Of a stretch of 45,396 nt of DNA, positions 6,826 through 27,623 are shown in pieces (position 1 is the stretch's first letter; each line of letters starts with the position of its first letter). The translations under genes were made by a program, and so were the position numbers. Source of the stretch: Candidatus Eiseniibacteriota bacterium (GTDB taxonomy: Bacteria; Eisenbacteria; RBG-16-71-46); NCBI GenBank assembly GCA_025360715.1, contig JANYBS010000247.1, forward strand, positions 1 to 45,396, given 5' to 3'. The notes beneath the pieces are model-generated. The model was not told the DNA's origin. It did no database searches and saw only the letters and a list, made by a program, of their open reading frames with translations.

Positions 6826-7359
6826 ATGCTCTGCCAGATCTGCGGCAAGAATCCCGCGACGGTGCACTTCACGGAGATCCACGACAATCAGATGTCGGAG
6901 ATCCACGTGTGTGAGCGCTGCGCTGAGGAGAAGGGCATGCAGGCCTCGGCCCAGCAGCACAAGTTCGAGATCGCCGACCTGTTGGCCGGCATGGTCGATT
7001 CCATGACCGTCACCGACGAGGAGCGCGTCGGCCATGTGGCTTGCACGCGCTGCGGCATGCAGTACTCGAGCTTCAAGGAGACCGGCCGCTTGGGCTGCTC
7101 CGAGTGCTACACCGCTTTCCAATTCCAGTTGCGGCCGCTGTTGCGGCGCATCCATGGCGACACGCGCCACCGCGGTAAGACGCCGGCGCGCGGCGGCGCC
7201 GGGGCGGCGCGTTCGCGGCAGATCCAGCGCCTGCACGACGATCTGCAGCGTGCGGTCGAGCGCGAGGACTTCGAGACCGCGGCCAGTGTTCGCGACGAGA
7301 TCCGCCGGCTCGAGACCGAGGCGCAGGCCGAACGCGCCGACGCAGGGAAGAGTTCATGA
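6826..7359 (+). CDS. mcsA: McsA-type zinc-finger/UVR protein, activator of McsB
   Basis: 177 residues with four CxxC pairs: CQIC at the N-terminus, CERC near residue 30, CTRC near 74 and CSEC near 90. These form two zinc-binding modules. A C-terminal UVR motif (about 130-165, LHDDLQRAVEREDFETAASVRDEIRRLE) follows, as in Firmicutes McsA. McsA activates the arginine kinase McsB and links it to ClpC. The gene begins 14 bp after lolD and its stop overlaps mcsB. Firmicutes usually have ctsR directly upstream of mcsA. Here lolD is in that place and no CtsR-like gene is visible, so regulation must differ. Confidence 0.9.
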   Translation: MLCQICGKNPATVHFTEIHDNQMSEIHVCERCAEEKGMQASAQQHKFEIADLLAGMVDSMTVTDEERVGHVACTRCGMQYSSFKETGRLGCSECYTAFQFQLRPLLRRIHGDTRHRGKTPARGGAGAARSRQIQRLHDDLQRAVEREDFETAASVRDEIRRLETEAQAERADAGKSS

Positions 7360-8447
7360 GCGCGCCGCTCAAGGACTTCACCGGGCTCTTCGAGAGCACC
7401 AGCCCGTGGCTGCTGGGCGAGGGTCCGCACGCCGAGATGGTGCTGTCGACGCGGATCCGCCTGGCGCGCAACCTGCGCGAGGTGCCCTTCACGCACCGTG
7501 CGCGTGAGGAGCAGCTGCAGGGCGTGCTCGCCAGTGTGAGCGGCGCGGCGCAGGGCTCGCGGGTATTCCATGATGGTCTGCTGTTGAAGATGAACGAGTG
7601 CACGCCGATCGAGCGCCAGGTGCTCGTCGAGCGCCATCTTGTGAGCCACGAGCTGGGCGACGGCTCGCGTCCGCGCGGCATCCTGATCGCGCCCGATGCG
7701 CGGCTCAGCCTGATGATCAACGAAGAGGACCATCTGAGATTGCAGGCGCTCACGCCCGGCTTCCAACTGGCCGAAGCGTGGAGTGTCGCCGATGCCGCCG
7801 ATGACGAACTCGACCAGACGCTCGAGTTCGCGTTCTCGGAGGAGATCGGCTTCCTCACGTCCTGTCCGACCAACGCTGGCACCGGCCTGCGCGCGTCGGT
7901 GCTCATCCACCTGCCCGCACTGGTATTGCTCGAAGAGATCCAGCGAGTGCTCAAGAGCATCATGCAGGTGGGCCTGAACGTGCGCGGCCTCTACGGCGAG
8001 CACAGTGAGGTGATGGGCAACCTGTTCCAGATCTCGAACCAGACCACGCTCGGCCGTAGCGAGCGTGATTCGATCGAGAGCCTGGAGCGTGTCACGAAAC
8101 AGATCATCGAGACCGAAGAACGCGCGCGCGAACGCATGATGCGCGACGCCCGCACGCAGATCGAGGACAAAGTCTGGCGCGCCTACGGCACGCTGCGCTA
8201 TTGCCGTTCGATCCACGCGCGTGAGGTCATCAATCTGTGCTCGGCAGTGCGCCTGGGTTCGGCGATGGGCCTTTCGGGCCTCTGCCCGCTGCGCACGCTC
8301 AATGAATTGCTGGTGCTGACCCAGCCGGCACACCTGCAGCGCTCCCACGGGAGCGAGTTGTCACCGGCGGAACGGAATGTCTATCGCGCCCAACTCGTGC
8401 GAGAGCGGCTTGCTGCCGCCGAACGCGAGTCGGGCTTGGGAGCATAA
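7356..8447 (+). CDS. mcsB: Protein-arginine kinase McsB
   Basis: 363 residues of the ATP:guanido phosphotransferase family. It phosphorylates arginine side chains and marks proteins for ClpC(P) degradation. Visible motifs: LSTRIRLARNL (ATP-phosphate Arg residues, about 30-40), NEEDH with Glu123/Glu124 (substrate guanidinium), Cys170 in FLTSCPTNAGTGLR, and EHSEVMGNLFQISNQTTLG. The length equals McsB and is shorter than metazoan creatine or arginine kinases, and mcsA and clpC flank it. The C-terminal allosteric motif, RDxxRA in Bacillus/Geobacillus McsB, reads RNVYRA here (residues 340-345), so the Asp is replaced by Asn. The ATG overlaps the mcsA stop. Confidence 0.94.
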   Translation: MSAPLKDFTGLFESTSPWLLGEGPHAEMVLSTRIRLARNLREVPFTHRAREEQLQGVLASVSGAAQGSRVFHDGLLLKMNECTPIERQVLVERHLVSHELGDGSRPRGILIAPDARLSLMINEEDHLRLQALTPGFQLAEAWSVADAADDELDQTLEFAFSEEIGFLTSCPTNAGTGLRASVLIHLPALVLLEEIQRVLKSIMQVGLNVRGLYGEHSEVMGNLFQISNQTTLGRSERDSIESLERVTKQIIETEERARERMMRDARTQIEDKVWRAYGTLRYCRSIHAREVINLCSAVRLGSAMGLSGLCPLRTLNELLVLTQPAHLQRSHGSELSPAERNVYRAQLVRERLAAAERESGLGA

Positions 8448-8453
8448 GGGCCT

Positions 8454-8513
8454 AAGGAGAGGAGGAGGTCGCTGTCAAGGCCCACGCAGGGCCGGAAGCG
8501 GCGACCGAACAGC
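8454..8513 (+). promoter_or_regulatory. clpC translation-initiation region with distant SD and bridging hairpin
   Basis: A long purine Shine-Dalgarno tract (AAGGAGAGGAGGAGG, 8454-8468) lies 45 nt before the clpC ATG at 8514, too far for normal use. No other SD lies close to the ATG. Between them GGTCGC (8467-8472) pairs with GCGACC (8501-8506), and GGCCC (8479-8483) pairs with GGGCC (8489-8493). Folding would bring the tract to within about 9-13 nt of the ATG. A CTG at 8472, in frame and 6 nt after GGAGG, is an alternative start that would add 14 residues. Confidence 0.45.
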
Positions 8514-10997
<2,484 letters not shown>

Positions 10998-14348: not shown

Positions 14349-15464
14349 ATGAGCACACGAACCCTTGCGGAGCTCGCAGCGGAACTCGACGGGCTGGTGG
14401 TCGGTGATGCGGCCGTCGTGATCCGCGGCGTCGCCGGCATCCGCGAAGCGCAGGCGGGCGATATCACCTTCATCGCCAACTCGCGCTACGACGCCTACCT
14501 CACCGAGACCAAGGCGTCCGCGGTCATCTGCTCGCGCGAGACGCGCGAATCACCCGTGCCGCTGCTGCGGGTCGACAATCCCTATCTGGCATTCCAGCGC
14601 ATCGTCCGCCTGTTCCGGCCCGAATTGTTCCATGCCGTTCCGGGCACGCATGCCAGCGCGGTCGTGGATCCCACCGCCGTGATCGGCGACGGCGCATCGA
14701 TCGGCGCGAATTGCGTGCTCGAGTCCGGCGCACGGATCGGCGCGCGCACGGTGCTCATGCCCGGCTGCTACGTGGGCGTGCAGTCGAGCATCGGTGAGGA
14801 CGGCATGGTGTATCCGCACGTCACGATCCGCGAGGAATGCCATATCGGCGATCGCGTGATCCTGCACCCGGGCGTGGTGATCGGCGCCGATGGTTTCGGA
14901 TTCGCGTTCGACGACGGCAAGTACCACAAGGTGCCGCAGGTCGGCAGTGTGGTGATCGGCCACGACGTCGAGATCGGTGCGAACACGACGGTGGACCGCG
15001 CCACGACCGACGCGACGCGCATCGGCGATGGCACCAAGATCGACAACCTGGTGCAGATCGGCCACAACGTCGTGATCGGCAAGCATTGCATCATCGTGTC
15101 GCAGGTGGGGATCTCCGGCAGCACACACCTCGAGGATTACGTCGTGATCGGCGGCCAGGCGGGCGTGGCGGGTCACATCCGGCTCGGCAAGGGCGTCAAG
15201 GTTGCCGGGCAGAGCGGCGTCACGAAGTCCGTGCCTGCGGGCGCCGAGGTGTTCGGCACGCCGGCGATGGCCTTGAATCTCTTCAAGCGCATGAACGTGT
15301 ACCTGCACAAGCTGCCGCGGTTGTTCGACAAGGCGAAGTCCCTGGAAGAACGCCTAGAGAGGCTCGAAGCGTCGAGGCTCGAACAGTCGAAGCTCGAAGA
15401 GTCGAGGCTCGAACAGTCAAAGCTCGAGCAACACGCGCCGAAGGACAAGGAGGCCGTGCGTTGA
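14349..15464 (+). CDS. lpxD: UDP-3-O-acylglucosamine N-acyltransferase LpxD
   Basis: 371 residues. An N-terminal uridine-binding domain (about 1-100, [13 protein letters not shown]) is followed by a left-handed beta-helix of hexapeptide repeats (about 105-285, such as [11 protein letters not shown]). His239 in QIGHNVVIG coincides with the catalytic His of E. coli LpxD. It adds the N-linked acyl chain at the third committed step of lipid A synthesis. The C-terminus is unusual: after the normal end helix ([29 protein letters not shown]) come tandem pentapeptides [10 protein letters not shown] encoded by 15-bp DNA repeats. The start has GGAGG just upstream. The stop overlaps the lpxC TTG start. 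Confidence 0.96.
15357..15431 (+). repeat. 15-bp tandem repeats in the 3' end of lpxD
   Basis: Five in-frame 15-bp units encode [25 protein letters not shown]. The unit TCGAGGCTCGAACAG at 15372-15386 recurs exactly at 15402-15416, giving a 30-bp higher-order repeat. The encoded charged helix extends the C-terminal helix of LpxD. Confidence 0.85.
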
Positions 15465-16783
15465 GGAAGCGGATGCAGCGGACGATCGGTGGTCCCGCGG
15501 TGATCGAGGGCGTCGGGCTGCATACCGGCGAGAAGGGCACCATGCGTTTCATGCCGGCGCCGGTCGGACATGGCGTGCGTTTCGTGCGCACCGACTTGCC
15601 GGGCGGTCCCGAGGTCCTGGTGCGGCCGGAGAACGCGCACTTCGATCCCGGCGCAGGGCGCCGCACGATCCTGCAGCAGGATGGCGTGCAGATCCACACC
15701 ATGGAGCATGTGCTGGCAGCCGTCGCAGGCTTGGGCATCGACAACCTGCGCATCGAGACGAGTACGATGGAGGTGCCGGAGGGCCACGACGGCAGTTCGG
15801 CGCCGATCGCACGCGCGCTCATGGCGGCCGGTCTCGTGGACCAGGACAAGCCCACGCGCCACATCAAGGTGACCAAGCCCGTGCACTGGGCAGAGAAAGG
15901 TGTGGAGCTGAGCGCGGTGCCGTTCGACGGCCTGCGCATCACCTTCCAGATCGAATATGACCATCCGCTGATCGGCATCCAGGAGCGTACGGTCGATATC
16001 TCGCCCGAGGTATTCCTGGAGCAGATCGCGCCCGCGCGCACGTTCGTACTCGAGCGCGACCTGGAGCTGCTGCGCGAGGCCGGCTGGATCAAGGGCGGGC
16101 GGCTCGAGAGCGCGATCGTCGTGGGCAAGGACGGCACGATCCTCAATGATGAACCGCTGCGTTTCCCCGACGAGTTCGTGCGCCACAAGATCCTCGACCT
16201 GATCGGAGACCTGTTCATCCTGGGTGCGCCGGTGCTGGGACATTTCACAGCGCGGCGCTCGGGACATCAGGGGCATGTGGCATTCGTGAAGATGCTCAAG
16301 GAGACGCTGCCGTTGCCGGGCCGCCGTCCGGGCGGGCCTCCGGGCGAGTGGGACATCACGGCGATCATGGACCTGCTGCCGCACCGCTATCCGTTCCTGC
16401 TCGTCGACCGCATCATGGCGATCGAAGAAGGCGTGAGCATCGAAGGGCTCAAGAACGTCACGATCAATGAGCCGTTTTTCCAAGGCCACTTTCCTGGGCA
16501 GCCCACGATGCCGGGCGTGCTCATCCTGGAAGCCATGGCGCAGGTGGGCGGCATGCTCATGCTCAACTCGGTCGATGATCCCGGCAACAAACTCATGTAT
16601 TTCATGGGCATCGATGGCGCGAAGTTCCGCCGCCCCGTGGTGCCAGGTGACCAGTTGCACTTCAAGCTCACGCTCATCAACGCCAAGCGCCGGACCATGA
16701 AGATGCGCGGCGAGGCGTTCGTCGATGGCCAACTCGTCGCCGAGGCCGAACTGCTGGCCACGGTCGTGGACAAGCGCCCATGA
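15461..16783 (+). CDS. lpxC/fabZ: Bifunctional LpxC deacetylase / FabZ dehydratase fusion
   Basis: 440 residues. Residues 1-285 are LpxC (UDP-3-O-acyl-GlcNAc deacetylase, the committed zinc step of lipid A synthesis): Glu82 and His83 in TMEH, His242 and Asp246 in [10 protein letters not shown], and His269 in SGHQGH match catalytic and zinc residues. Residues about 295-440 are FabZ (3-hydroxyacyl-ACP dehydratase): [12 protein letters not shown], then His343 in [12 protein letters not shown] and Glu357 in LEAMAQ. No stop or frameshift separates them. The TTG at 15461 has AAGGAGG 7 nt upstream and overlaps the lpxD stop; the ATG at 15473 is less well placed. Such fusions are known in Bacteroidetes. 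Both halves control the same 3-hydroxyacyl-ACP branch point. Confidence 0.95.
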
Positions 16784-17583
16784 CGCCTCCCGCAGGCACG
16801 GTGACGAAGGGTGCGCGCGTCCATCCGGCATCGTTCGTGGATCCAAAAGCGCGTCTGGGTGTCGACGTGGTCGTCGAGCCCGGCGCCGTGATCGGTCCCG
16901 ATGTCACGATCGGGGACCGCACCATCGTCGGCTCGCACGCTCTGGTCTCGGGCTGGACGACCGTGGGCGCGGATTGCCATATCCATCACGGCGCCGTGCT
17001 TGGCACGCCGCCGCAGGATCTGAAGTATTCCGGCGAGCCATCGTACCTGACGGTGGGTGACCACACCGTGTTGCGCGAGTACATGACGGCGAACCTCGCC
17101 ACCGAGCCGGGATATACCACGCGGATCGGCAGCCACTGCCTGCTCATGGCCTACTCGCATGTGGCGCATAACTGCCAGGTGGGCGACCGCGTCGTCATCG
17201 CGAACGCCGTGCAGATGGCAGGCTACGTGATCGTCGATGACTGGGCGATCGTGGGCGGCAGCACCGTCGTGCACCAGTTCACGCGCATCGGCCGCCACGC
17301 CATGATCGGCGGCGGTTCGCGCATCCCGCAGGACATCGCGCCGTTCGTGAAGGCGGCCGGCAGCCCGCCGCGAAATGCCGGCATCAATAGCGTTGGCCTC
17401 GACCGCCGCGGGTTCAGCCGCGAAACACGCGAGGCCATCGAAAAGGCCTACCGGATCTTCTTTCGCAGCGGCGCGACCGCCGTGGCGGCGGTCCAGCAGA
17501 TCCGCCAGCGGTTGCCGGGCATCCCCGAGGTAGAACATTTCGCGCGTTTCTGCGAAACCTCGGTTCGCGGCATCTCGCGTTGA
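16780..17583 (+). CDS. lpxA: UDP-N-acetylglucosamine acyltransferase LpxA
   Basis: 267 residues. A left-handed beta-helix (about 8-195, hexapeptides such as [14 protein letters not shown]) is followed by a C-terminal helical domain with [23 protein letters not shown]. His130 in [10 protein letters not shown] is the catalytic His. It adds the 3-hydroxyacyl chain to UDP-GlcNAc, the first step of lipid A synthesis. The ATG overlaps the lpxC-fabZ stop, as expected since LpxA and FabZ compete for the same acyl-ACP. Confidence 0.97.
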
Positions 17584-17594
17584 CAGGAGGACAC

Positions 17595-18578
17595 GTGAAA
17601 AGCGTCCGTTGCGGTGTGTGGGGAGTTGGCGTGTGGGGCGAGAAGCACGCGCGCGTCTATGGCGCCGTGCCGGAAGCGACGCTCGTCGGCGTCTACGACC
17701 AGTCCCCGGAGCGCGCGAAGGCGGTCGCGGCACAGTACGGCACCCAAGCGTTCGAGACTCCCGGCGCACTCTTGGAGAAGTGCGAGGCGATCTCGGTCGC
17801 GACGCCGACCATCGCGCACCGCGCGGCGGCCGAGCAGGCGCTCGCGGCAGGCGTCCATGTGCTGGTGGAGAAGCCCATGGCCGTCACGGTCGCCGACTGC
17901 GACGCCATGATCGCTGCGGCGAAGCGCGCGCACCGCGTGTTGCAGGTGGGCCAGGTCGAGCGTTTCAACCCCGCGCTGCTCGCAGCGAAGCCGTTCGTGC
18001 GGCAGCCGAAGTTCATCGAAGCGCACCGGCTGGCCGCCTTCCAGCCGCGCAGCCTGGATATCGACGTCGTGGGCGATCTCATGATCCACGACATCGACGC
18101 CGTGCTGCACATGGTGGGCTCCACACCCACGAGTATCTCGGCGGTCGGCGTGGCGGTGCTCTCGTCCAACGAGGACATCGCGAATGCGCGCCTCGAGTTC
18201 GCAGACGGCTGCGTCGCGAACCTCACCGCGAGCCGCGTCTCGGTGGAACGACTGCGCCGCATCCGGTTCTTCCAGGGCGACGCGTACGTGTCGGTCGACC
18301 TGTTCGAAAAGGCGGGCGAGGCCTTTGTGATCAAGGACCCCAACTCGTTCAAGCCCGGCGCGGTCGATCCATTCGCACTCTTGCAAGGCATCCAGCGTAC
18401 GAAACTCGAGGTTGCCGCGGGTGAACCACTCACGCTGGAACTGCAAGCCTATCTGCGCTCGCTGTGTGGCGAAGGCGCCGGTGCGGCCTCGGCGCAGGCC
18501 GGCCGCGACGCGCTGTTCGTGGCCGAAGAGGTGCGCGAGGCCATGCGCCGGCGCGCGCTGCAGTGGACGGCGCACTGA
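17595..18578 (+). CDS. Gfo/Idh/MocA-family oxidoreductase in the lipid A operon (GnnA-like candidate)
   Basis: 327 residues. An N-terminal NAD(P)-binding Rossmann domain (GVWGVGVWGEKHARVY) is followed by the EKP motif in VLVEKPMAV, whose Lys is catalytic in the family, and by the C-terminal domain with DLMIHDIDAV. The GTG at 17595 has AGGAGG 4 nt upstream. It lies between lpxA and lpxB. In Acidithiobacillus and Leptospira a Gfo/Idh enzyme, GnnA, oxidises UDP-GlcNAc at C3 before GnnB transaminates it, giving lipid A with amide-linked acyl chains at position 3. No gnnB is seen here, so that role is only a candidate. lpxI occupies this slot in some alphaproteobacteria. The overlap of 16 nt with lpxB indicates coupling. 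Confidence 0.8.
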   Translation: MKSVRCGVWGVGVWGEKHARVYGAVPEATLVGVYDQSPERAKAVAAQYGTQAFETPGALLEKCEAISVATPTIAHRAAAEQALAAGVHVLVEKPMAVTVADCDAMIAAAKRAHRVLQVGQVERFNPALLAAKPFVRQPKFIEAHRLAAFQPRSLDIDVVGDLMIHDIDAVLHMVGSTPTSISAVGVAVLSSNEDIANARLEFADGCVANLTASRVSVERLRRIRFFQGDAYVSVDLFEKAGEAFVIKDPNSFKPGAVDPFALLQGIQRTKLEVAAGEPLTLELQAYLRSLCGEGAGAASAQAGRDALFVAEEVREAMRRRALQWTAH

Positions 18579-19717
18579 CCCCCTGCGCTCCCCGGGGCGA
18601 GCGCAGGATCCTGATCGTCGCGGGTGAGCCTTCGGGTGACTTGCATGCCGCGCGCTTGGTGAAGGCGTTGCGCGAACGGGGTGCTTGCCGCGTGCGCGGC
18701 GTCGCCGGGCCGCGCATGCGCGAGGCGGGCGTGGAAGCGGTCGTGCCGCAAGAAGACCTTGCGGTGATCGGCTTCAGCGGCATCCTCGCGAAGCTGCCCG
18801 TGCTGTTCGACACGCGCCGCCGTCTGCTCGCCGAGGTCGCGAGCTTCCAGCCCGATGCCGTGGTACTCGTCGACTATCCCGGCTTCAACCTGCGCATCGG
18901 TCCCGAGTTCCATCGCAGAGGCGTGCGTACGTTCTGCTACGTGGCGCCGCAGGTCTGGGCGTGGCATCCCGAGCGCGCCGGCGAGATGGCGCGTTGGGTG
19001 GACCGCTTGGCGGTCGTCTTTCCGTTCGAGGAGAGCATCTTCCGAGATGCCGGCGTGCCCACCACGTTCGTGGGTCATCCGTTGCTCGATGAGTTGGAGC
19101 CCGAAGTCGACGCGGCGACTCTGCGCGCAGAACTCGGCGCGGCCGAAGGCGCGCCGGTGCTGGGCCTGCTTCCCGGCAGCCGACGCGGCGAGCTGGCGAT
19201 GCTCGCGCGACCCATGCTCGCAGCGGCGCAGATCCTGCGCGCGCGCCACGCGGGCCTGGTGCCGGTGGTCGCGCTCGCCGAGAGCGTGAGCGCGGCTGCG
19301 CTGCCCGCCGAGCTGCTCACGGGCATCCGCGTGGTGCGCGGCCGCACGCGCTCGGTGCAGGCACATGCGACATGTTGCGCGGTGGCCTCGGGCACCGCGA
19401 CGCTCGAGACCGCGCTGTTCGGTACGCCGCTCGCGATCGTGTACCGAGTGGGCTGGCTCAATCATGTCATTGCGCAGCGCGTGCTCACGCTCACGCATAT
19501 CGGCCTGCCGAACATCGTCGCGGGACGCGAGGTGGCGCCGGAGCTGCTTCAGGAGGCGCTCACGCCGCAGGCGCTCGCCGAGACATTCGACGCGTGGCTG
19601 CGCGACCCCGCCGAGCTGGCGCGCCGCCGCGCGGCGCTTGCCGTGGTGCGCGAGCGCCTGGGCGGCCCGGGCGCCTCCGCGCGCACGGCGCAGGCGCTGT
19701 GGGAGTTGGTGGCGTGA
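18563..19717 (+). CDS. lpxB: Lipid-A-disaccharide synthase LpxB
   Basis: 384 residues from a GTG at 18563, a length close to E. coli LpxB (382). RILIVAGEPSGDLHAARLV is the N-terminal signature, and VDYPGFNLRI, YVAPQVWAWHPERA, FVGHPLLDE and LLPGSRRGE are GT19 motifs. LETALFGTPLAIVYRVGWL and LPNIVAGREVAPELLQ complete the donor site. It joins UDP-2,3-diacylglucosamine and lipid X into the disaccharide. The start lies inside the 3' end of the Gfo/Idh gene, and no strong SD is visible, so translation is probably coupled. The substrate lipid X requires LpxH, LpxI or LpxG, none of which is in the window. Confidence 0.95.
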   Translation: MDGALTPCAPRGERRILIVAGEPSGDLHAARLVKALRERGACRVRGVAGPRMREAGVEAVVPQEDLAVIGFSGILAKLPVLFDTRRRLLAEVASFQPDAVVLVDYPGFNLRIGPEFHRRGVRTFCYVAPQVWAWHPERAGEMARWVDRLAVVFPFEESIFRDAGVPTTFVGHPLLDELEPEVDAATLRAELGAAEGAPVLGLLPGSRRGELAMLARPMLAAAQILRARHAGLVPVVALAESVSAAALPAELLTGIRVVRGRTRSVQAHATCCAVASGTATLETALFGTPLAIVYRVGWLNHVIAQRVLTLTHIGLPNIVAGREVAPELLQEALTPQALAETFDAWLRDPAELARRRAALAVVRERLGGPGASARTAQALWELVA

Positions 19718-20379
19718 GTGATCGCGCGTTTCCTTGGTGGCTGGGCTTGGCCGAACGCGGTGGCACGGGGGCACTGGCCGTGCTCGGACACTCGTGGCGG
19801 CTCGAGCGGGCGGACGCGCCCGAATACCTGACGGCGCTGGCCGCAGGCGAGCGATTCATCTATGCCTTCTGGCATGCGCGCACCGTCACGATCACCTGGT
19901 GGCGCCGAGGCGAAGGCATCGCCGTGTTGGTGAGCCAGCATGCCGACGGCGAGCTCATCGCCCGTGTGAGCGAACGTCTGGGCTATGTGACCGGGCGCGG
20001 CTCGAGCACGCGTGGCGGCGAAGCGGGCATGCGCGACATGATCCGCTGGGCGCGCGCGGGCCGGCAGCTTGCCGTGGCGCCCGATGGTCCGCGCGGGCCG
20101 GCGCACCACGTGAAGGACGGGCTCTTGGTGATGGCGTCACGGCTGGGCCGCCGCATCGTGCCCATGGGCGCGGCAGCGGATCACGAGTGGCGCGCACGCT
20201 CGTGGGACCAGCACCGCATCCCCAAGCCGTTTGCGCGCATCGTGCTGCGCCACGCGGCGCCGGTCGCGGTGGTGAAGGACATCCATGGGGATGCTCTGAT
20301 CCCGGCACGGCTCGAACTGGATGCGGCGCTCGATACGGTGCAGGCCGAAGCCTCGCGCCGCGCCGGGGTGGCCGTATGA
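19714..20379 (+). CDS. DUF374 lysophospholipid acyltransferase family protein, LpxJ-like
   Basis: 221 residues, GTG start overlapping the lpxB stop. DUF374 hallmarks are FIYAFWHAR (about 49-57), SQHADGELIARVSERLGY, GSSTRGGEAGMRDMI and LAVAPDGPRGPAHHVKDG, followed by the membrane-facing segment ASRLGRRIVPMG. The known characterised DUF374 enzyme is LpxJ of Helicobacter and Campylobacter, a lipid A secondary acyltransferase that can act before Kdo addition. Its place directly between lpxB and waaA supports the same role here. No LpxL/LpxM-type acyltransferase is visible. The catalytic His is probably in FWHAR, by analogy with the HX4D-type enzymes. Confidence 0.82.
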   Translation: MSDRAFPWWLGLAERGGTGALAVLGHSWRLERADAPEYLTALAAGERFIYAFWHARTVTITWWRRGEGIAVLVSQHADGELIARVSERLGYVTGRGSSTRGGEAGMRDMIRWARAGRQLAVAPDGPRGPAHHVKDGLLVMASRLGRRIVPMGAAADHEWRARSWDQHRIPKPFARIVLRHAAPVAVVKDIHGDALIPARLELDAALDTVQAEASRRAGVAV

Positions 20380-21623
20380 GTCTCGCGTGGGCGGCCTACC
20401 GCACGCTGGCGCCGGTGCTGGGCGCCATCGCGCCGGCGACCGCGATCTTCGCGTCGCCGCAAGAGAAGCAGTTCTGGCGCGAGCGTCTGGGCGATGTCTC
20501 ATTGCCTGGCGGCTGCCATGCGTGGGTGCACGCCAGCAGTCTGGGCGAGACAGGCGCCGTGGCGCCGCTGCTGCGCGAGTTGTCGGCGCGGCAGCCCGGC
20601 GCGCGCTACTGGCTCACCGCGACCACGCGCACCGGTCGCGAGCGGCTGGCGGCGCTCACGTGGCCTTCGTCGCTGGCGCCGATCGATTCGCCCCAGGCTG
20701 TGCAGCGGTTCTTCCGTGGCGTCGAGCCGCAGCGATTGCTCTTGATCGAGACCGAGCTTTGGCCGCACTGGTTGTTGCGCGCGCGCGCTCAGCGCGTCCC
20801 TGTGGCGATCGTGAGCGCGCGGTTGGGGGAACGTAGCGTGCGACGCTACCAGGGCTTGGGCCGCGAACTTCGCGGGCTTGTACGTGATCTTGCCGCAGTG
20901 ATGTGCCAGAGCGAAGCCGATGCGACGCGCTGGCGTGAGATCGGTGCGGATCCCTCGCGCGTCACCGTTGTGGGCAATCTCAAGAGCGACGGTCTGCCCG
21001 AACCCGTTGCCGACCGCAGCGTGGAGCGCGCGGGACTGGGCCTTGATGCCGCCCGGCCGCTGCTGGTGCTCGGCAGCCTTCGTCCCGGCGAAGCGCGGGC
21101 CATGGCGCGTGCCTGGATGGCGTTGCCCCGCGAGATGCGCGAGCTCTGGCAGGTGGTGGCGGTGCCACGGCATCCGCGCGCGGCGGCGGAACTGCGCGAG
21201 GAGGCCGCGCGCGCAGGCGTCTTGTTCACCACCAGTGCGCCGCAGGGCGGCGCATGGCGCTGGGACGAGCGCATGGGCATTCTGGTCGGATGGTATCGCG
21301 CCGCCGAGGTGGCATTCGTGGGCGGGAGCCTCACACCCTTCGGGGGTCACAATCCGCTCGAGGCCGCCGCCTGCGGGTGCGCCGTGATCATGGGGCCGCA
21401 TCACGCCACGCAACTGGAGTACGTACGCGCGTTGCGAGGGGCCGATGCGCTGGCGCTCACCACGGTGGGGCCGCATCTGCTGCATACGCTCGCGGCGCTG
21501 CTGGGTGATGCGGGCCTGCGCGGTCGCGCCAGCGCTGCAGGCCTCGCTGTGGCCAAAGCCCAGCGCGGCTCCGCGGGGCGTGCGGCAACGCGCCTGAGCG
21601 CTGCGGGTCTGTGGCCCGTATGA
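20376..21623 (+). CDS. waaA: 3-deoxy-D-manno-octulosonic acid transferase WaaA (KdtA)
   Basis: 415 residues. An N-terminal hydrophobic segment is followed by the GT30 acceptor domain with WVHASSLGETGAVAPLL, where Glu58 is the expected catalytic base. LLIETELWPHWL, GNLKSDG, VLGSLRPGEA, FVGGSLTPFGGHNPLEAAACG and MGPHH form the CMP-Kdo binding half. It transfers one or more Kdo residues to the lipid A precursor at the inner membrane. ATGA overlap with the upstream acyltransferase and with lpxK. CMP-Kdo synthesis genes (kdsA, kdsB, kdsD) are not in the window. Confidence 0.95.
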   Translation: MSLAWAAYRTLAPVLGAIAPATAIFASPQEKQFWRERLGDVSLPGGCHAWVHASSLGETGAVAPLLRELSARQPGARYWLTATTRTGRERLAALTWPSSLAPIDSPQAVQRFFRGVEPQRLLLIETELWPHWLLRARAQRVPVAIVSARLGERSVRRYQGLGRELRGLVRDLAAVMCQSEADATRWREIGADPSRVTVVGNLKSDGLPEPVADRSVERAGLGLDAARPLLVLGSLRPGEARAMARAWMALPREMRELWQVVAVPRHPRAAAELREEAARAGVLFTTSAPQGGAWRWDERMGILVGWYRAAEVAFVGGSLTPFGGHNPLEAAACGCAVIMGPHHATQLEYVRALRGADALALTTVGPHLLHTLAALLGDAGLRGRASAAGLAVAKAQRGSAGRAATRLSAAGLWPV

Positions 21624-22588
21624 ACGTGCTCGCAGCGCTGGGCGCGCGGATCTTCGGCGCTGCGTGGGAGGTGCGCCGGCGGGCGTATGCGCTGGGCTGG
21701 CTGCGCCAGGAGCGAGTCGGCGCACGCGTCGTGAGCATCGGCAACCTGAGCGTGGGCGGTGCGGGCAAGACCACGCTCACGCTGGCGCTCGCCGCCGAGG
21801 CGCTGCGGCGAGGAGTGCGCGTGGCAGTGGTCTGCCGCGACTACCGGCCCGGCCCCGGCGGCCGCGGCGATGAGTCACTGTTGTATGCGATGGCGATGGG
21901 GGAGCGCCACGTGTTCTCCGGCACGTCGAAGCGTCTGCTCGCGCGCACGGCGGCCTTGAGCGGCGCGGAACTCGTGCTGGTGGACGACGGGTTCTCGCAT
22001 TGGCCACTCGCGCGCGACCTCGACGTGGTGTTGCTCGATGCGTCCGATCTCTGGGGCGGCGGCGCGTTGCTGCCCGCCGGACGGTTGCGCGAGCCGCGCC
22101 GCGCGTTGCAGCGCGCCGGCGTGGTGATCGTGACCCGTTTGGACGCCGACGCCGATGCTGCTGCGTGGGTCGCGCGCGTGCGCCCCTATGCGCCTGCGGC
22201 GATATTCGCTGCCGCGCGCCATCGGGTGAGTCGCGTGCGCGCGCAAGTTCCAGGCGCGCCTGCGCCCGCGGCGCGTGGCCCGGCGCATGTGGTGACGGCC
22301 ACCGGCAATCCCGAGGCCGTGGCAAGGACCGCGCGGGACGCCGGCTTCGCGCCGGTGACGCTCTCCTCCTACCGGGATCATCATTGGTTTACGGAAGCTG
22401 AAGCACAGGCCGAGCTGCATCGCGCGGGCAACAGCCTGCTGCTGCTCACCGCCAAGGATGCGGTGCGCTGGCCCGCGGCCGCGCAAGGCGCGAGAGTGGC
22501 AGTGTTGGACGTGGCGTGGGAGTGGGTCTTGGGCGGCGACGCCGTGCTTGCGGCGATCTTCGCAGGCCTCAGGGGATCGGAGGCGTGA
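21620..22588 (+). CDS. lpxK: Tetraacyldisaccharide 4'-kinase LpxK
   Basis: 322 residues. The P-loop region is VVSIGNLSVGGAGKTTL, and CRDYRPGPGG and LVDDGFSHWPLARDLDVVLLDA follow; the latter is the LpxK-specific stretch (DDGxxH-LARD in characterised enzymes). LREPRRALQRAGVVIVTR and LLLTAKDAVRWP are also family positions. It phosphorylates the 4' position of the tetraacyl disaccharide. The ATG at 21620 overlaps the waaA stop; a GTG 9 nt upstream is in frame. This is the last recognisable lipid A gene of the operon, with nadB following directly. Confidence 0.94.
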   Translation: MNVLAALGARIFGAAWEVRRRAYALGWLRQERVGARVVSIGNLSVGGAGKTTLTLALAAEALRRGVRVAVVCRDYRPGPGGRGDESLLYAMAMGERHVFSGTSKRLLARTAALSGAELVLVDDGFSHWPLARDLDVVLLDASDLWGGGALLPAGRLREPRRALQRAGVVIVTRLDADADAAAWVARVRPYAPAAIFAAARHRVSRVRAQVPGAPAPAARGPAHVVTATGNPEAVARTARDAGFAPVTLSSYRDHHWFTEAEAQAELHRAGNSLLLLTAKDAVRWPAAAQGARVAVLDVAWEWVLGGDAVLAAIFAGLRGSEA

Positions 22589-24685: not shown

Positions 24686-26563
24686 GTGAACCTCTACCTT
24701 CGGCTCCTTGGCTACCTGCGTCCGTATCGCGTGCGCATGGCGTTCGCGATCCTCTGCATGGTCGTCTACTCGTTCACATCGACGATCCAGATCAAGCTGG
24801 TCGAGCCTTTCACGAGCCTCATGTTCTCGCGCCCGGTCACGCAGGCGGCGCCTGCTGCTACCGGCCAGCCGTCTGCCGCGGGCTCGCCGATGGCGGGCAT
24901 CTCGCTGCCGGCGATCCCGATCGCGACGCCGCACGGACTGACGAGCTTTCAGGCGTGGTGGCACCACTGGCTCTTCGATGTGCGAAGGCTGGTCGCGTTC
25001 GAGCGGCTGTGCATGGTGATCCTGGGACTCTTCCTGTTCAAGAACGTGGCGGACTACATCGGCTCGTTCCTAAGCGTGACGGTCGAGCAAGCCGCCATGC
25101 GCGATGTGCGGCGCGACCTGTTCCATCATCTGCAGTCGCTCTCGCTGAGCTTCTATCATAGCCGCCGCACCGGTGGGCTCATCTCGCAGATGACCAACGA
25201 CGTCGAAGCGCTGCGCAGTGCGCTGGCCGCCGGCATCAGTAACCTGCTCAAGGATGGCCTCACGCTCATCGGCGCGCTCACGCTGGTCTTCCTTGCGTCG
25301 TGGCGGCTGGCGCTCATGTCGATGCTGATCCTGCCACCGGCCGCACTCGTACTGGTCACGATCGGCCGCAAGATGCGCAAGCGTTCGGGCCGGGCGCAGG
25401 AGCGCATGGCCGACATGACGGGCATCCTGCAAGAGAGCATCGCAGGCGTTCGCGTGGTGAAAGCCTTTCATATGGAAGCCTTCGAGGAACGCCGCTACGA
25501 GGAAGCGAACACCGGTTACTTCCACGCCTTCGTCCATCTGCGGCGGGTGTCGGCGGCGGCCAAGCCGTTCAGTGAGTACGCGATCATCTTGGTGGCGGTG
25601 GCGATCGCGTGGCTGGGCGCGCGCGAGATCTTCGACCAGCACAGCTTGCCGCCGGAGCGCTTCTTCACGTTCGTGACGGCGTTGTTGCTGACGATCTCGC
25701 CGATCAAGAGCCTCTCCGAGGTCAATAGCACGATCGCCACGGGACTGGGCGCTGCGGACCGCGTCTTTGGTCTGCTCGATACGCCGGCCACCATCACCGA
25801 CGTGCCGGACGCGCCGAATCTGGCCGCGCTGGGCGACGCGATCGTGTTCGACCACGTGAAGTTCGCCTACGAGACCGGGGACACGGTGCTGCATGACGTG
25901 TCGTTCTTGGTGCCGCGCGGGCATGTGGTGGCGCTCGTGGGTGCCAGCGGCGCGGGGAAGAGCACGACACTCGACCTACTGGCGCGCTTCCACGATCCCA
26001 CGGGCGGCGCCGTGCGCTGGGATGGCGCCGATATCCGAGGCGTGAGCGTCGCATCGCTGCGCGCGCAGCTGGGCATCGTGACGCAGGAGACGATCCTGTT
26101 CCACGACTCCGTGCGCGCGAACATCGCTTACGGTGTGCAAGCGACCCCGCAGGAGCAGGTCGAGGCCGCGGCGCGCGCCGCGCACGCGCACGAGTTCATC
26201 GCCAGGTTGCCGCAGGGCTACGACACCGTGATCGGTGACCGCGGCGTGCGGCTCTCGGGCGGCGAGCGCCAGCGGCTGGCGATCGCCCGTGCCCTGTTGC
26301 GCAATCCGCCCGTGCTGCTGCTCGACGAAGCCACCTCGGCGCTCGATACCGAGAGCGAGCGGCTCGTGCAGGACGCGCTCGAGCGCCTGATGCAGGACCG
26401 CACCGTGCTGGTGATCGCGCACCGGCTGTCGACCGTGCAGCACGCGAACGCGATCCTCGTCTTCGACGGCGGCCGGATCGTGCAGCAGGGCACGCACGAC
26501 GAGTTGGTCGCCGAAGCCGGCGGCGCCTATCGCCGGCTGCACGACCTGCAGTTCCGCGACTGA
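24686..26563 (+). CDS. msbA: Lipid A export ABC transporter, MsbA-like permease/ATPase
   Basis: 625-residue half-transporter. Six transmembrane segments lie at about 15-310; the first extracytoplasmic loop carries an Ala/Pro-rich insert (about 50-80) before the second segment. The ATPase domain has Walker A GASGAGKSTTLD from residue 419, signature LSGGERQRLAIARAL, Walker B VLLLDEATSALD and switch His in IAHRLST. The family includes many multidrug exporters; the position after the lipid A genes and before a heptosyltransferase favours MsbA, which flips lipid A-core across the inner membrane. The GTG start is only 3 bp after the upstream stop. Confidence 0.85.
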   Translation: MNLYLRLLGYLRPYRVRMAFAILCMVVYSFTSTIQIKLVEPFTSLMFSRPVTQAAPAATGQPSAAGSPMAGISLPAIPIATPHGLTSFQAWWHHWLFDVRRLVAFERLCMVILGLFLFKNVADYIGSFLSVTVEQAAMRDVRRDLFHHLQSLSLSFYHSRRTGGLISQMTNDVEALRSALAAGISNLLKDGLTLIGALTLVFLASWRLALMSMLILPPAALVLVTIGRKMRKRSGRAQERMADMTGILQESIAGVRVVKAFHMEAFEERRYEEANTGYFHAFVHLRRVSAAAKPFSEYAIILVAVAIAWLGAREIFDQHSLPPERFFTFVTALLLTISPIKSLSEVNSTIATGLGAADRVFGLLDTPATITDVPDAPNLAALGDAIVFDHVKFAYETGDTVLHDVSFLVPRGHVVALVGASGAGKSTTLDLLARFHDPTGGAVRWDGADIRGVSVASLRAQLGIVTQETILFHDSVRANIAYGVQATPQEQVEAAARAAHAHEFIARLPQGYDTVIGDRGVRLSGGERQRLAIARALLRNPPVLLLDEATSALDTESERLVQDALERLMQDRTVLVIAHRLSTVQHANAILVFDGGRIVQQGTHDELVAEAGGAYRRLHDLQFRD

Positions 26564-26564
26564 C

Positions 26565-27623
26565 ATGGCCGCGCAACGCCTGGTAGCGCCCGAAGGCGGC
26601 TTTCGCGAGATCGCCATCCTGCGGCTTTCGTCGCTGGGGGACGTGGTCCTGACGCTGCCCGTGGTCCATGCGTTGCGCGCGGCGTATCCGCTGGCGCGGC
26701 TGCACTTCTGGGTCAAGGAGGAGTTCGCTACGCTGCTGCGATTCGAGCCTGCCCTCACGCACGTGCGCGAGCTCGAAAAGGACGCGCGGCGCCTGGAGGA
26801 CCTTGTCTCCATGAGCGCTGAGCTCGAGGACTGCGACCTGGTTGTGGATTTGCACGGCAACATGCGCACGCGTGTGCTCACGTTCCGCCAGAAGGCGATC
26901 GTGTTGCGCGCCCCGAGCGAGCGGCTGCTGCGCGAGCGCTGGGTGCGCGCACGCTGGACGCAGCCGCCACGCCCGCACACGACGCTCGCGCGCTATGCGG
27001 CGGCGCTGGCGCCTCTGGGGATCGCCGTCCCGGCCGCGCCGCCGCAGCTGGTGGCCGGTGAGGCCGCCGAGGGCTGGGCGGCCGAATGGCTGGCGAAGTG
27101 GGGCGAGAGCGGTCCACTGGTCGCGCTCTGCCCCGGCGCGAAGCACGCGACGAAGCAGTGGCCGCAGGAACACTGGTGCGCGCTCGATGCGCAACTCGCC
27201 AAGGCCGGTGTGCGTCGCGTGGTCTTCAGCACCGGTAGCGAGCGTGCCGCGCTGCCGGAGTTGGCGGCGCGCATCGCCGCGGACCCGCGCGCGAGGTGGT
27301 GCCTGGAGCCACTGCCGCGGGTTGCCGCGCTGCTCACGCACGCGGCAGTCGCGGTCACGCACGATTCCGGGCTCATGCATCTGGCGGCGGCGCGCGGCAC
27401 GCGTGTGGTGGCGATCTTCGGCAGCACTTCGCCCGTCCTGGGATTCGCGCCGGCGGGCGAAGGTCACGTGGTGCTCTGCCGCGACGAGCCCTGCCAGCCG
27501 TGCACGCTCCATGGCCGTGAGCGTTGTCCGCTGGGACATTTCCGGTGCATGCGCGAGATCGCGCCGGCGCAGGTGCTGGCGGCGCTGGCGGAGCTCGGTG
27601 TGGCGGCCGGCGCCCCCGCCTGA
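26565..27623 (+). CDS. Glycosyltransferase family 9 (heptosyltransferase)
   Basis: 352 residues of the GT-B fold. The N-terminal ILRLSSLGDVVLTLPVVHALRAAYP is the GT9 signature. The donor half has LCPGAKHATKQWPQEHW, VTHDSGLMHLAAARGTRVVAIFGSTSPVLGF and a cysteine-rich segment CRDEPCQPC...RCPLGHFRCM near the C-terminus that is common in heptosyltransferases. It would add ADP-heptose to Kdo or inner-core heptose; WaaC, WaaF or WaaQ cannot be separated from sequence alone. A second GT9 gene lies at 32059-33054. It follows msbA by 1 bp. Confidence 0.88.
   Translation: MAAQRLVAPEGGFREIAILRLSSLGDVVLTLPVVHALRAAYPLARLHFWVKEEFATLLRFEPALTHVRELEKDARRLEDLVSMSAELEDCDLVVDLHGNMRTRVLTFRQKAIVLRAPSERLLRERWVRARWTQPPRPHTTLARYAAALAPLGIAVPAAPPQLVAGEAAEGWAAEWLAKWGESGPLVALCPGAKHATKQWPQEHWCALDAQLAKAGVRRVVFSTGSERAALPELAARIAADPRARWCLEPLPRVAALLTHAAVAVTHDSGLMHLAAARGTRVVAIFGSTSPVLGFAPAGEGHVVLCRDEPCQPCTLHGRERCPLGHFRCMREIAPAQVLAALAELGVAAGAPA

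Follow-up and report, generated by a model that had tools for sequence, protein, structure and literature searches.

The GnnA-GnnB route is already known, and its closest described representative to the locus considered here is the pair from A. ferrooxidans (GnnA structures 7bvj and 7bvk), whose gnnA and gnnB presumably both lie in the lpxA-lpxB region. Two other organisms are reported with the genes apart: Mesorhizobium loti, which has GlcN3N in its lipid A and gnnA and gnnB far from one another (PMC5644692), and Capnocytophaga canimorsus, whose lipid A is of the GlcN3N-GlcN type, in which both gnnA and gnnB were identified and whose genes other than lpxA, lpxA', lpxC and lpxD are termed dispersed (PMC3342949). 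For G. bethesdensis a single putative gnnA and two gnnB candidates are reported (PMC8036547), and for L. pneumophila a GlcN3N lipid A (PMC7956469). In L. adelaidensis gnnA-lpxB occurs in a 12.8-kb stretch that has no annotated aminotransferase; the record holding this stretch (L236, NZ_LR134421.1 51841-64686) is termed a plasmid (88 kb), and the genes beside gnnA-lpxB there, htpG, glnA and gspF, are more usual for a chromosome. In the titles and abstracts shown for the open-access literature on gnnA/gnnB lipid A, Eisenbacteria are unnamed, and the terms Eisenbacteria, lipopolysaccharide and lipid A co-occur in that literature, as far as its displayed entries go, only in work on sheep gut microbiota.

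A lipid A operon with gnnA in Eisenbacteria

The locus lies on a 45,396-nucleotide contig (C157, JANYBS010000247.1) of a Candidatus Eiseniibacteriota metagenome-assembled genome (MAG; 4.29 Mb, 253 contigs, 96% complete); the whole of this contig was analysed and is called the window. A same-strand run comprises bamA, ompH, lpxD, lpxC-fabZ, lpxA, gnnA, lpxB, a DUF374 gene, kdtA and lpxK (Table 1), and past lpxK come a frame that by eye resembles nadB, then msbA and a heptosyltransferase-like gene. The window GnnA has its best PDB match, with shared conserved blocks, in A. ferrooxidans, and its gene likewise adjoins lpxA, but unlike that system the window operon is without gnnB, and the candidate for it is unlinked, in another cluster. 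M. loti and C. canimorsus resemble the window genome in having gnnA and gnnB apart and differ in that their gnnA is not reported to lie between lpxA and lpxB. The Eisenbacteria GnnA would join this known route, and the finding of the initial annotation, made from the sequence alone, is correct as a local observation: the lipid A enzymes from lpxD to lpxK are indeed present in the window, the UDP-diacylglucosamine hydrolase excepted, and a GnnA-like Gfo/Idh gene does lie between lpxA and lpxB.

Table 1. Features of the window and two candidate partners on other contigs of the same genome (positions are those of the window unless a contig is named)
Feature	Position	Strand	Basis and remarks
lpxD	14349..15464	+	Pfam / NCBIfam
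lpxC-fabZ fusion	15473..16783	+	Pfam LpxC at 2-276, FabA-like at 302-426, single frame
lpxA	16780..17583	+	profile matches; Val at E. coli Glu200 position
gnnA, Gfo/Idh UDP-GlcNAc 3-dehydrogenase homologue	17595..18578	+	ORF, Pfam, PDB match, alignment, tree; in-frame TTG at 17580
lpxB	18563..19717	+	profile matches; GTG start 18563 inferred; 18590 onward used for searches
DUF374 acyltransferase, LpxJ-like by family	19714..20379	+	PF04028; family meaning as reported in PMC6148475
kdtA/waaA Kdo transferase	20373..21623	+	profile matches
lpxK	21611..22588	+	profile matches
msbA-type ABC transporter	24686..26563	+	NCBIfam
heptosyltransferase-like protein	26565..27623	+	NCBIfam, below curated cut-offs
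degT_C228, candidate GnnB	G000 C228:12554-13675		GnnB/WbpE clade in tree
LpxH-family phosphoesterase, LpxH2-type	C131:3692-4468		TIGR01854 sub-cut-off match and motif blocks

The lpxC-fabZ product of the window reaches 462 of 465 bits on the NCBIfam bifunctional-enzyme model, and as a query it aligns at full length in most loci of the phylum. The DUF374 family is reported to contain LpxJ, which acts late as an acyltransferase on the 3' position (PMC6148475), so the window DUF374 gene is read as LpxJ-like and may supply the operon's secondary acyltransferase; the idea that LpxJ is a further UDP-diacylglucosamine hydrolase was dropped on the same account of it as a DUF374-family late acyltransferase. 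Further upstream, at 7356-10997, two frames resemble (by eye) the McsB arginine kinase and ClpC. The McsB-ClpC arrangement is better known from Firmicutes.

Identity of the oxidoreductase and conservation of its slot

The gnnA coding sequence is real, with a frame open from a TTG at 17580 to 18578 and a GTG at 17595 that gives 327 aa; it follows lpxA, whose stop ends at 17583, and precedes lpxB. Its product matches Pfam GFO_IDH_MocA (4.9e-30) and the C3 domain (1.2e-10). Against all PDB sequences it scores 204.8 bits over residues 4-318 with 7bvj (PDB title 'Oxidoreductase, NAD-binding'), which we take to be the A. ferrooxidans GnnA (AfGnnA), and the next entry reaches 70.5 bits at partial coverage. 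A 13-row alignment that includes AfGnnA leaves E142, R145, R152, D155, D157 and the block DLMIHD invariant. A tree built from 21 GnnA-type rows and 11 rows of other Gfo proteins splits the two sets at 92/95, a value slightly short of the tool's star; AfGnnA, the Legionella GnnA and the GnnAs linked to gnnB fall on the window side, and the other Gfo paralogue of the window's own genome is placed apart. An earlier tree gave a 99/98 split, yet drew two truncated outgroup rows to the GnnA side via long branches; in the 92/95 tree the three truncated rows are absent and different rows serve as outgroup. The NCBIfam UDP-GlcNAc 3-dehydrogenase model, archaeal by its name, is matched at 167 bits, short of its cut-off of 450. 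Homology and synteny together make the assignment of the window coding sequence as a GnnA homologue well supported. Among the matches listed, from which records of the own genome may have been left out, the closest named relative is a Candidatus Eisenbacteria MAG (86% identity over the protein). Relatives borne on plasmids account for 21 records, most of them haloarchaeal and 34-40% identical in the rows listed (H2-H20).

The placement of the gene recurs throughout the phylum. With the window gnnA as query, 42 of 47 phylum genomes match at E 1e-20; the match in G016 is to the other Gfo paralogue only (28% identity), leaving gnnA in 41 of 47. The order lpxA-gnnA-lpxB is found in 34 of 36 phylum gnnA loci, and the other two (L076, L093) are truncated at a contig end and retain one neighbour. 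In the six genomes without gnnA the slot is not covered: the lpxA match meets or nearly meets a contig end where gnnA would follow in three (G003, G011, G035), and no lpxA match exceeds the cut-off in the others (G012, G016, G032). Because the slot is the same in relatives of many genera, the placement is more than chance. No DegT match (E 1e-8) lies beside gnnA in the 36 phylum loci, over stretches of 4 to 15 kb; among named loci of many phyla, a DegT adjoins gnnA in 3 of 80 (L122, L127, L182; the 80 are the best of 591 relatives, and some flanks are short).

The initial annotation put the oxidoreductase in the lpxI position. That gnnA replaces lpxI is a view that we reject, since the two genes share a cluster in seven loci of other phyla: 7 of 7 examined lpxA-gnnA gaps of named loci (L107, L118, L125, L143, L150, L157 and L162, from Acidobacteria, Nitrospira, 'delta' groups and an uncultured bacterium) encode an LpxI whose two Pfam domains both score far above cut-off, and LpxI was not found in the three other gaps around gnnA (L106, L142, L155) that complete the ten examined. 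Within the phylum, PF06230 (LpxI) was found in 0 of 47 genomes, and not in the window's own, by a search that detected the Caulobacter control.

Candidate partners elsewhere in the genome

Profile searches of the own genome place no LpxI, no LpxH, no other PF00149-type metallophosphoesterase and no DegT aminotransferase in the window; genome-wide the match counts are 0 for PF06230, 1 for TIGR01854, 9 for PF00149 and 11 for PF01041, none of them on the window contig. LpxH, LpxI, LpxG and GnnB are lacking from the window, and the lack of hydrolase and aminotransferase candidates is a property of the window and not of the genome. The eleven DegT (PF01041) matches comprise four strong ones (on C103, C228, C155 and C90) and seven weak ones. 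Compared with three gnnA-linked GnnBs, degT_C228 shows 45-49% identity (344-369 bits), degT_C90 40-45% (273-305 bits) and the other two strong candidates 32-36%. A 63-row tree groups degT_C228 with the same three GnnBs and WbpE at 98/96 and leaves the other three DegTs of the genome outside; branching inside this clade is poorly resolved, so GnnB-like and WbpE-like use of degT_C228 are not separable. An orthologue at 68-90% identity is present in all 19 family relatives. At E 1e-60, 45 of 47 phylum genomes give a match, which is not in every case an orthologue.

Like WbpE and related DegTs, whose clade it shares, degT_C228 sits in a Gfo-acetyltransferase-DegT cluster: in its own genome it adjoins a Gfo dehydrogenase and a hexapeptide acetyltransferase, and across 13 such loci in families f1 and f2 the acetyltransferase is present in 13 and the Gfo gene in 10. 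This company suggests another pathway, and degT_C228 may make a different diamino sugar, serve both pathways or have no lipid A role. Standalone DegTs occur in several outer families, either in addition to the cluster copy or in its place. In family f11, two loci (L210 and L219, of G042 and G044) hold a GnnB/WbpE-clade DegT that has neither a Gfo nor an acetyltransferase gene as neighbour; the frames beside it resemble (by eye) AsmA, multihaem cytochromes and deoxyhypusine synthase.

For the UDP-diacylglucosamine hydrolase (step 4), the LpxH model TIGR01854 has a single matching protein, at C131:3749-4405, in the own genome. It is like LpxH in aligning to model positions 2-220 of 231 and in keeping all seven metal ligands, but unlike it in its third block, GNHD instead of GNRD, and in its score, 77 bits against a cut-off of 190. 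Motif inspection covered 29 of the 45 LpxH-family matches in all, and GNHD recurs in 27 of the 28 relatives inspected. An Arg in this block is reported to separate LpxH from LpxH2 (Opiyo et al., PMC3087551), and by that criterion the C131 protein is called LpxH2-type; in P. aeruginosa LpxH this residue is Arg80, a ligand of the lipid X phosphate, and the same account reports no known activity for LpxH2 (PMC5016852). Matches to TIGR01854 occur in 44 of 47 phylum genomes, including 26 of 26 high-quality ones, and exceed the cut-off in none of the 47. Caulobacter, which has LpxI, also yields a sub-cut-off LpxH match, so such a match alone is no proof of function. The C131 protein is the likely candidate for the UDP-diacyl-sugar hydrolase, and the LpxH2-type is the only kind of step-4 candidate found in the phylum. 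One genome (G004) carries, alongside its GNHD copy, a second LpxH-family copy with GNRD at 136 bits (L058, C107:27457-28122). LpxG is described as a calcineurin-like protein with the blocks GDxxDR and GNHD (PMC4807358); GDxxDR was found in none of the six motif-readable proteins among the eight PF00149 matches besides C131, the other two (L007, L010) giving no motif.

The hydrolase and GnnB, both reported missing by the initial annotation, are missing from the window, as it said, but have possible counterparts elsewhere in the genome, where contigs C131 and C228 supply an LpxH-family candidate and an aminotransferase candidate of the GnnB/WbpE clade. The genome search that it proposed for lpxH, lpxI, lpxG and gnnB produced LpxH2-type and DegT candidates and came back empty for LpxI and, in the six proteins readable by motif, for the GDxxDR block. 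It had named a lack of gnnB genome-wide, combined with an oxidoreductase outside the GnnA clade, as evidence against its proposal; what we find is degT_C228 and a position on the GnnA side of the tree.

Residue 200 of LpxA

At the position of E. coli LpxA Glu200 the window LpxA has Val. Glu is found there in several LpxAs of GlcNAc type (E. coli, Burkholderia, Vibrio and Acinetobacter), Val in L. interrogans (3hsq) and C. jejuni (3r0s), and His in H. pylori. Selectivity for UDP-GlcNAc3N is a property of the L. interrogans enzyme, and H. pylori lipid A contains GlcN. C. jejuni is reported to have a GlcN3N-GlcN lipid A (PMC7956469). All 35 phylum loci with lpxA have V, I or L at this position, and 13 of 14 loci from other phyla V or I, the remaining one (L107, gnnA-positive) having Glu. 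A Rhodocyclales genome has two LpxAs, of which the copy linked to gnnA-gnnB has Val and the other Glu. In an alignment covering 17 of 18 loci (L247 gave no row), two genomes are exceptions: G047, with gnnA-gnnB-lpxB, has Glu in its sole LpxA, and in a Flavobacterium (G056) both LpxAs have Val. The residue check suggested by the initial annotation gave a Val shared with Leptospira and Campylobacter, with exceptions that include L107, G047 and G056.

Among 143 gammaproteobacterial genomes, 57 have gnnA (E 1e-30). At least one non-Glu LpxA is present in 44 of these 57, against 5 of 39 sampled genomes without gnnA (Fisher 3e-10, which ignores kinship); 13 of the 57 have Glu only, and when the residues counted are restricted to V, I, L, T, M, C or A the figures become 34 of 57 and 5 of 39. 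The 39 were drawn from 86, mostly by best-scoring LpxAs, and the gnnA-positive counts are without the second LpxA copies of G101, G106 and G198. One Glu and one V or I copy were found in 11 of the 14 gnnA-positive genomes whose two LpxAs were compared. A kinship-aware pair test on 81 single-LpxA genomes gives two independent pairs on supported branches, too few to decide, and in a column scan positions 104 and 116 outscore 200. Glu196 of PaLpxA, which corresponds to position 200, is listed in the UDP pocket and not in the GlcNAc pocket in the account of that enzyme (PMC7072397). As a marker of a GlcN3N-type LpxA, Val200 is suggestive only.

Predicted pathway and alternative readings

In the pathway that we propose, GnnA would oxidise the 3-OH of UDP-GlcNAc with NAD+ to UDP-3-keto-GlcNAc. 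Conversion of this product to UDP-GlcNAc3N would fall to a GnnB/WbpE-clade aminotransferase encoded away from the operon, degT_C228 being the likeliest. The operon's LpxA would add a 3-hydroxyacyl chain to the 3-amino group, giving a GlcN3N backbone with amide-linked primary chains, LpxC-FabZ and LpxD would act after it, and the UDP-diacyl sugar would be cleaved by the LpxH2-type phosphoesterase on C131, of a type with no known activity. We assign a probability of roughly 0.65 to this joint reading, in which gnnA, the unlinked aminotransferase and LpxA would lead to GlcN3N lipid A, an LpxH2-type protein would be the hydrolase, and lpxI would not have been replaced; from family, synteny and the presence and place of candidate partners we infer the activities and the lipid A structure. 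The suggestion that the lipid A may carry GlcN3N is retained, and amide-linked GlcN3N lipid A is the best reading across the phylum on sequence grounds. The fuller version, in which all-amide GlcN3N lipid A would be phylum-wide, the aminotransferase would also serve a separate diamino-sugar cluster and the hydrolase would be LpxH2-type, we advance tentatively, at clearly worse than even odds; if true, it would give LpxH2 a role in the lipid A pathway.

A MAG that is 96% complete in 253 contigs, the identity of degT_C90 to the gnnA-linked GnnBs and the standalone DegTs of several outer families could all accommodate a GnnA that acts in lipid A synthesis with a different partner, either another DegT, for example that on C90, or one lost in gaps of the assembly. 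We consider this unlikely, degT_C228 being nearer to each of the three linked GnnBs, alone of the four in their clade and conserved as an orthologue in all 19 family relatives. More doubtful still is that GnnA is a UDP-GlcNAc 3-dehydrogenase feeding diamino sugars of surface glycans through the C228 DegT and acetyltransferase, with its lpx placement a matter of envelope co-regulation only. Such a role would suit an operon without an aminotransferase, a GnnB-closest DegT beside an acetyltransferase in all 13 f1 and f2 loci examined, an archaeal dehydrogenase as nearest NCBIfam model and relatives on haloarchaeal plasmids, but the C228-type cluster mostly has a Gfo dehydrogenase of its own (10 of 13 loci), gnnA keeps a constant place between lpxA and lpxB, and at position 200 the LpxA of the window has the residue of two GlcN3N organisms. 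That the oxidoreductase took over UDP-diacylglucosamine hydrolysis from LpxI, or is tied to that step, would fit its occupation of the lpxA-lpxB slot in a phylum where LpxI was found in none of 47 genomes; we give it hardly any credence, given the seven loci in which gnnA and lpxI both lie between lpxA and either lpxB or genes downstream and the LpxH-family candidate on C131, and we know of no hydrolase chemistry of the LpxI kind in the Gfo/Idh fold.

The preferred reading, of GlcN3N lipid A made with an unlinked aminotransferase, amounts to predicting from sequence which lipid A chemistry a phylum without cultured members has, and it narrows a known gap, that of a full lipid A pathway with only an LpxH2-type protein at step 4. 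With an LpxH2-type candidate in 44 of 47 genomes and LpxI in 0 of 47, the LpxH2 question is directly testable in this phylum. The change at LpxA position 200 might likewise mark a GlcN3N-type LpxA if kinship-aware support is found. One genome (G090) has a Glu200 lpxA, gnnA (L286) and a Val200 lpxA in a row (the two lpxA copies being L329 and L330; C237:29653-32235), a natural LpxA-selectivity pair.
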